This document shows, piece after piece, positions 9,763 through 10,939 of a DNA stretch of 34,223 nt (positions are counted from its first letter, which is position 1; each line of letters begins with the position of its first letter). This DNA is from Vulcanimicrobiia bacterium. Its GTDB lineage: Bacteria; Vulcanimicrobiota; Vulcanimicrobiia; Vulcanimicrobiales; Vulcanimicrobiaceae. The notes beneath the pieces were generated by a model that did not search any database, was not told the DNA's origin, and was given only the letters and a program-made list of their open reading frames with translations. The position numbers and the translations under genes are program-made. The stretch spans positions 1 to 34,223 of the forward strand of contig JANWKW010000109.1 in assembly GCA_025451135.1 (NCBI GenBank), in the 5' to 3' direction.

Positions 9763-10422
9763 TTAGTCGCGTCGGCGACCCCCGAAGATCTGGAGCAACG
9801 CCAGGAAGATATTGAGCGCGTCGAGGTAGATCTGCACCGCCATCTGGACCGGCGTGAGCCCGTCGCCCCCGGCCCGGATGCGCGCGAAGTCGAGCAGGGT
9901 CAGCCCCGCGAAGATCGCGAGCGTCGCCCACGCGTACGCCGTCGGGCTGATGAAGTGGAAGAACAGCGAGATCAGGCCGACCAGCACCAACGCGACGAGC
10001 GCCCCGAAGAGGATGCCCTGGAAACGCCGGAGATCCAGCCCGGTGATGTAGACGACGCCGCCGAGCACCGCCATGCCGAGCGCGGTCGTCATCGCCGCGT
10101 CGTAGACCACGCCAGGACCGATCGTGCTGACGTAGTTCCCGATCACCGGCGCGATCCCGACGCCTTCCAACAACGCGAACAGGTAGAAGAGCAGCAGCGA
10201 CAGCGACTCGTTCGAGCGCGTCGCCCGGATCGCGAACAGCACCACGAACCCGATCAGCATCGCGATCATCGCGATTCCGAACGGGATGCCTTGCAAGAAA
10301 TACGCGGCCAGGCCCGTGATGGCCATGCCGAGCGCCGTGATCCCGAGCACGTGCCCGAGCAGCGTCTGGGTCGGCATCGCGACCGCGAGACGGTTCGCAT
10401 TCGCCGGTATCTGGAAGGCCAT
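9763..10422 (-). CDS. Bax inhibitor-1/YccA family membrane protein
   Basis: Seven hydrophobic segments, C-terminal AVQIYLDALNIFLALLQIFGGRRRD typical of bacterial BI-1/YccA proteins. Confidence 0.92.
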   Translation of the reverse strand: MAFQIPANANRLAVAMPTQTLLGHVLGITALGMAITGLAAYFLQGIPFGIAMIAMLIGFVVLFAIRATRSNESLSLLLFYLFALLEGVGIAPVIGNYVSTIGPGVVYDAAMTTALGMAVLGGVVYITGLDLRRFQGILFGALVALVLVGLISLFFHFISPTAYAWATLAIFAGLTLLDFARIRAGGDGLTPVQMAVQIYLDALNIFLALLQIFGGRRRD

Positions 10423-10456
10423 GCCGCCCCCGTTTCGCGCTTCCCGGCCTTCCCCT

Positions 10457-10485
10457 TGCAATCGAACATACGTTCGATGTACGCT
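10457..10485 (+). promoter_or_regulatory. Predicted promoter with LexA operator in the spacer
   Basis: TTGCAA (-35-like, 10457-10462), 17-bp spacer, TACGCT (-10-like, 10480-10485); ATG follows 7 nt later. Confidence 0.5.
10461..10478. promoter_or_regulatory. LexA/DinR-type SOS box, perfect inverted repeat
   Basis: ATCGAAC-ATAC-GTTCGAT; contains TCGAAC-N4-GTTCGA, the actinobacterial/Gram-positive LexA consensus. Confidence 0.82.
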
Positions 10486-10492
10486 CTAACGC

Positions 10493-10939
10493 ATGACCGC
10501 TACCCGCCGCCTCGTCCCCAGCCATGCCGTGCTTGCCGGCCTCCCGGCCGACCTCGCGCGCGCCTCCTCCCGGCCCGCCCGGGTGGCGATCGGATGGCCC
10601 GACGACCCCTACGCCCGCCCCGCCGAGGCCCTGCTGATGCCGCGTCTCCTGGCGATCTTGGCCGATTTCGCGGTGCCCGCCGTCATCCGCACGCGATCGC
10701 CGCTGATCCTGCGCGACCTCGTCGCGCTGGCGCGGCTCGCGCGCGCCGCCGGCGTCCGCGTCTCGTTCCGCATCGTCACCCTCGACGACGTGCGCGTCGC
10801 CGCCCGACTCGCGCGGGCCGGTATCGACGTCGACGCCGCCCTGCTCCGCGCGATCGGCGGCCGGCTCGATGCGGCCATCGGCCGCGCGCGCATCGCACCG
10901 GAGGCACCGCGTCAACTCGGGCTGAACATCGCCGTGTGA
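10493..10939 (+). CDS. Truncated SPL/Rv2578c-like radical-SAM relative lacking the CxxxCxxC motif
   Basis: VAIGWPDDPYARPAEALLMPRLLAILADFAVPAVIRTRSPLILRDLVALARLARAAGVRVSFRIVTLDD resembles the TDPYQPAE...TKSxLxLRDLxLL...VxVSxTTLD core; no cysteines in the 148 aa. Confidence 0.7.
   Translation: MTATRRLVPSHAVLAGLPADLARASSRPARVAIGWPDDPYARPAEALLMPRLLAILADFAVPAVIRTRSPLILRDLVALARLARAAGVRVSFRIVTLDDVRVAARLARAGIDVDAALLRAIGGRLDAAIGRARIAPEAPRQLGLNIAV

Follow-up and report, generated by a model that had tools for sequence, protein, structure and literature searches.

We propose that a LexA operator lies within a leaderless promoter in a contig of a Candidatus Eremiobacterota bacterium, and that this intact SOS promoter now precedes the catalytically dead remnant of a SplB-like radical SAM gene. 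We assign this reading a probability of roughly 0.86. The stretch of DNA analyzed (34,223 nucleotides; hereafter the window) is the whole of contig C109 of a draft genome (G000) that comprises 2.1 Mb in 200 contigs and is 70% complete.

Operator and Promoter Layout

The operator ATCGAACATACGTTCGAT is a perfect 18-bp inverted repeat (ATCGAAC-ATAC-GTTCGAT, positions 10461-10478, no strand assigned), and its exact 16-bp core TCGAACATACGTTCGA (TCGAACN4GTTCGA) occupies positions 10462-10477, as described in the initial annotation. The claim that the window holds no second full match is borne out as well: the core has a single exact match and the runner-up sites carry two mismatches. A second-order Markov model of the window predicts 0.017 occurrences of the 16-mer and 0.0012 of the 18-mer over this length. 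Five other perfect 7+4+7 inverted repeats are present in the window, all of them G+C-rich and unlike the operator in sequence. Across the 2.115-Mb draft the 16-mer occurs four times versus about 1.0 expected under the same model, while a reversed-pattern control yields no match. Three of the four exact matches are located directly upstream of start codons, namely those of imuA-imuB-dnaE2, of an operon encoding a methylpurine-DNA glycosylase (MPG operon) and of the 148-residue remnant in the window (P0001). The fourth, on contig C129, lacks a promoter context and is probably a chance occurrence. The site CGAACATACGTTC (C90:13711) was rejected as an operator because it forms the stem of an intrinsic-terminator-like hairpin.

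The operator is embedded between a -35-like element TTGCAA (10456-10461, plus strand), proposed from the sequence and from relatives, and a -10-like element TACGCT (10480-10485, plus strand), which together make up a putative promoter. Their spacer measures 18 bp, not 17 bp as first annotated, but the -10-like element indeed ends 7 nt before the ATG at 10493, and a leaderless transcript is predicted. An in-frame TAA stop (10487-10489, plus strand) just 5' of this ATG means that P0001 has no start farther upstream and thus no longer N terminus. A generic sigma-70 scan did not call the window promoter because the hexamers are weak; comparison with relatives backs them nonetheless, most of which carry cTTGCA or cTTGTA immediately 5' of the box. 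The boxes of imuA and of the MPG operon in the window's own genome are preceded by TTGACA, and the resulting promoters (TTGACA-box-TACGAT and TTGACA-box-TATGAT, respectively) have the same geometry as the window site. In the 12 relatives compared that have a separate -10-like element, this hexamer ends 6-10 nt before the ATG and no Shine-Dalgarno sequence was found before the start codon; from this, leaderless initiation appears to be conserved at the radical SAM gene. In other family members box and apparent start codon overlap by a single base, with which the box ends and the codon begins. The leaderless-looking layout noted initially is thus kept in relatives, with the transcript start itself a prediction.

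The SOS Regulon in the Draft Genome and in Other Bacteria

The draft encodes a canonical lexA gene (profile match to TIGR00498 at 6e-67) whose product combines the LexA DNA-binding and S24 domains and has LexA structures as its best PDB relatives. Two variants of the exact motif, TCGAACATATGTTTGC and CCGAACGTCCGTTCTA, are located upstream of lexA, and GCGAACCGGTGTTCGA lies beside the gene divergent from it. The latter (L005:985-1353, minus strand) encodes a YneA-like LysM protein (NF010723, 2.1e-13; 50 bits versus a cut-off of 60), so that a LexA box is found beside a yneA-like gene as in Bacillus. The exact motif stands directly 5' of imuA-imuB-dnaE2, a locus identified by an ImuA model match (4.6e-14), the presence of Y-family polymerase domains and an error-prone DNA polymerase match of 1238.7 bits versus a cut-off of 939. 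In the MPG operon the exact motif directly precedes a small gene that is followed by the glycosylase gene.

This small gene (L004:1540-1965; G000:C140:8539-8964), with its perfect LexA box, encodes a 142-aa protein without Pfam match. Of 61 family genomes, 57 encode the protein, and 13 of the 14 loci checked have a box (up to two mismatches); by these counts it is a conserved uncharacterized protein of the predicted SOS regulon. An HNH endonuclease gene (L101:1528-2115, contig C23 of the draft) has ACGAACATACGTTCGATAGAAT upstream and is likely a further SOS gene.

No recA gene was found in the 70%-complete draft. The site CGAACAGGAGTTC on contig C137 was considered as the operator of the missing recA, but it falls within the coding region of a transporter-like gene that has neither ftsY nor recA beside it. 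Among relatives, a lexA box (up to two mismatches) is present in 26 of 29 genomes, and all 14 relatives compared have a box (one mismatch or none) at recA or at an ftsY-recA pair: directly before recA in four, and in ten before an ftsY-like gene leading into recA, FtsY being assigned here by reading the sequence rather than by family search. In these ten (L247, L251-L258, L260) the box is TCGAACAGGAGTTCGA or differs from it by one mismatch, and the AGGAG of its spacer might also serve as a ribosome-binding site. The initial annotation had suggested a genome-wide motif search including known SOS genes, and had regarded unrelated operators at lexA or recA as evidence against its proposal. The search located the operator at imuA-imuB-dnaE2 and, in variant form, at lexA of the draft, and lexA here and both lexA and recA in relatives share it.

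The association extends to other phyla. GAACN4GTTC is found upstream of radical SAM homologues in 14 of 14 cases in Eremiobacterota, 27 of 37 in Bacillota, 3 of 3 in Actinomycetota and 5 of 13 in Chloroflexota, and GTTCN7GTTC in 4 of 5 Alphaproteobacteria, with a shuffle expectation below 0.4 per group.

A Radical SAM Gene Reduced to a Remnant

The gene behind the operator (10493-10939, plus strand; an open frame of 149 codons) encodes P0001, a 148-aa Rv2578c/SplB-like radical SAM remnant without CxxxCxxC. Residues 17-110 match positions 109-201 of the 317-position NCBIfam profile NF038135 (E = 1.6e-10), with a score of 40.5 bits versus a cut-off of 430, far from a full-length family match. 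Identity to the orthologs in alignment A1 is 36-45%. The full-length radical SAM loci in the family all have CxxxCxxC (23/23) and all but one (22/23) have a box with up to two mismatches, located at the start codon or immediately ahead of it; in 12 relatives, the gene adjoins a divergent BI-1 gene as in the window. Based on the shared core homology, the BI-1 neighbor and the operator, the window locus is orthologous to these full-length loci.

Compared to the full-length orthologs, P0001 is devoid of about 75 N-terminal residues including CxxxCxxC, of an internal block that relatives conserve as LAREIEPTVAPPRQ, and of most of the C-terminal half, but a similar tail is kept (RQLGL versus RQLSL in orthologs). 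The TRSPLxxRD and DPY motifs are retained. In the shared part, P0001 preserves 14 of 22 invariant positions, while no ortholog lacks more than two of them. Divergence at second codon positions is 0.42 for P0001 versus 0.21 between orthologs, while third positions diverge equally (0.49 and 0.48, respectively); the third-position GC of P0001 (0.905) is of a coding type. By these comparisons, P0001 is under relaxed or redirected selection. Having lost the CxxxCxxC motif, the internal block and the bulk of the C-terminal half, P0001 is not expected to have radical SAM activity. No second copy of the radical SAM gene was found in the draft of the window, and a survey of 103 genomes of the order turned up no further copy that is shortened yet intact; the shortened form is thus known from one draft assembly and might in principle reflect an assembly error.

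The predicted structure of P0001, built with its relatives, is a partial barrel with a mean pLDDT of 82.5, and residues 11-110 are mostly at about 90 or above, a confidence that stems mostly from the alignment. Spore photoproduct lyase accounts for the model's six best PDB matches, none of them below an E-value of 0.001. Chance open reading frames are long in this G+C-rich region, and the open frame of P0001 consequently weighs little either way.

In relative G001 (L090, G001:C37) the BI-1-adjacent radical SAM gene is in two parts: a recombinase-like ORF comes after its 5' end, and the remainder is found about 5 kb away. This suggests an insertion and would be another instance of gene loss with the box kept.

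Neighboring Genes and Alternative Readings

Two neighboring genes have to be considered as possible targets of the operator. The divergent BI-1/YccA-type gene (9763-10422, minus strand; Pfam PF01027, E = 4.8e-29) has its ATG at 10422, about 39 bp from the operator and close to the 40 bp given initially. Downstream, P0002 (10936-14295, plus strand) encodes an uncharacterized protein of 1119 aa, probably a membrane protein, for which family profile searches returned no known family. Its start overlaps the P0001 stop in GTGTGA, and it may be the second gene of an SOS transcript, now SOS-driven. P0002 also contains a lipase-like GYSGGG motif. Matches to it occur in 16 of 99 family genomes, i.e., that of the window and 15 others.

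A chance palindrome would be compatible with the roughly one such 16-mer expected across the genome and with the one exact draft match in four, on C129, that is found away from any promoter-like context. The promoter position of the window site, its conservation at 22 of 23 orthologous loci and the sharing of the operator by lexA, recA and imuA-imuB-dnaE2 make this explanation next to negligible, and the window site is very probably a genuine LexA/SOS control switch. It is also very doubtful that this switch mainly serves BI-1, or both genes, as the initial annotation had considered. The short distance to the BI-1 ATG and the box 5' of BI-1 in all nine radical-SAM-bearing loci checked would fit such a role, but a box with up to two mismatches is present in only 2 of 20 relatives that have BI-1 without an adjacent radical SAM ortholog. 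The box thus tracks the radical SAM gene. It is still present at radical SAM loci away from BI-1, and the -10-like element in the window is oriented toward P0001. On the presence/absence pattern in relatives, BI-1 was rejected as the main target. One genome (G040:C200, L075; 63% complete) carries a perfect box, TCGAACAGATGTTCGA, 5' of BI-1 and yields no radical SAM match; this box is possibly a relic operator.

The alternative to which we give most weight, albeit still an unlikely one, is that the box has been kept because it now drives P0002, with P0001 as a passenger. The overlap of the two genes and the stretch from promoter to P0002 start, in which no terminator-like site was found, would allow this. 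Yet none of six P0002 homologues checked in relatives has a box directly upstream, which indicates that SOS control is no ancestral need of P0002 and led us to reject it as an ancestral SOS gene. It is less probable again that P0001 is not decaying at all and has become a new small SOS-induced protein, for instance a catalytically dead, cluster-less half-barrel that binds damage or acts as a regulator. Some residual function is possible, given a frame that stayed open through about three in-frame deletions, a coding-like GC content by codon position and a confidently modeled core whose best structural matches agree on a single enzyme; the retained motifs and the perfect operator point in the same direction. 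Against this, 8 of the 22 invariant positions are gone, divergence at second positions has doubled and the form was seen in a single genome, with no further example among 103 of the order. In its most specific form, a SOS-induced cluster-less mini-SplB that would now be a non-enzymatic DNA-damage protein (e.g., a lesion binder or decoy regulator) and for which the LexA promoter was kept, the idea is a shade more speculative still.

Discussion

We favor an intact SOS promoter on a dead SplB-like remnant. LexA bound to the operator, which overlaps the promoter spacer, would block RNA polymerase; upon DNA damage, RecA-stimulated self-cleavage of LexA would open the promoter. In the ancestor, a full-length Rv2578c/SplB-like radical SAM protein, presumably a DNA-lesion repair enzyme, would have been expressed from it. 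In the window lineage, in-frame shortening would then have cost the protein its N-terminal 4Fe-4S region, the conserved internal block and the greater part of its C-terminal half. What the promoter would serve today is a remnant presumably without enzymatic role and, if co-transcribed, the overlapping 1119-aa gene. Binding, induction, the leaderless start and co-transcription are predictions from the sequence.

The Eremiobacterota operators are identical in half-sites and spacing to the DinR operators of B. subtilis and the actinobacterial LexA operators (CGAAC-N4-GTTCG), and like these they precede lexA, recA, imuA-imuB-dnaE2 and a yneA-like gene. They differ in their host phylum (Candidatus Eremiobacterota; the window does not come from an actinobacterium), in the frequent placement of the recA operator before an ftsY-recA pair and in that several of them coincide with leaderless-type promoters or even reach into the start codon. 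SOS control of splB has been proposed for Alpha- and Betaproteobacteria (PMC3323433) and inferred in Bacteroidetes (PMC8565304), and the LexA regulon tabulated for Streptomyces venezuelae includes the radical SAM gene vnz_31145 (PMC9380542). With a LexA operator before a SplB-like radical SAM gene, the full-length Eremiobacterota loci conform to this pattern, whereas the window gene has lost the iron-sulfur motif and about half of its length. Likewise, both the Rv2578c-family (NF038135) and the PA0069-family (NF033668) models recognize each of the 16 proteins in alignment A1, while P0001 matches the middle of these models alone, far below the cut-offs. In the open library searched, we found no paper on LexA or SOS in Candidatus Eremiobacterota and none linking Rv2578c with LexA. 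The operator type and the SOS control of splB in other phyla are thus already known. What is new in the present sequences is the phylum, a leaderless-type architecture shared among relatives, and a perfect operator that has survived although the gene behind it is gutted.

In summary, this analysis provides a LexA operator and a core SOS regulon for the largely uncultured phylum Eremiobacterota, predicted to consist of lexA, recA or ftsY-recA, imuA-imuB-dnaE2, a yneA-like gene, an Rv2578c-type radical SAM gene and the 142-aa protein. It extends the predicted SOS control of SplB-like enzymes to a further phylum, and the window appears to have caught a case in which a regulatory site outlives the catalytic part of the gene it controlled.
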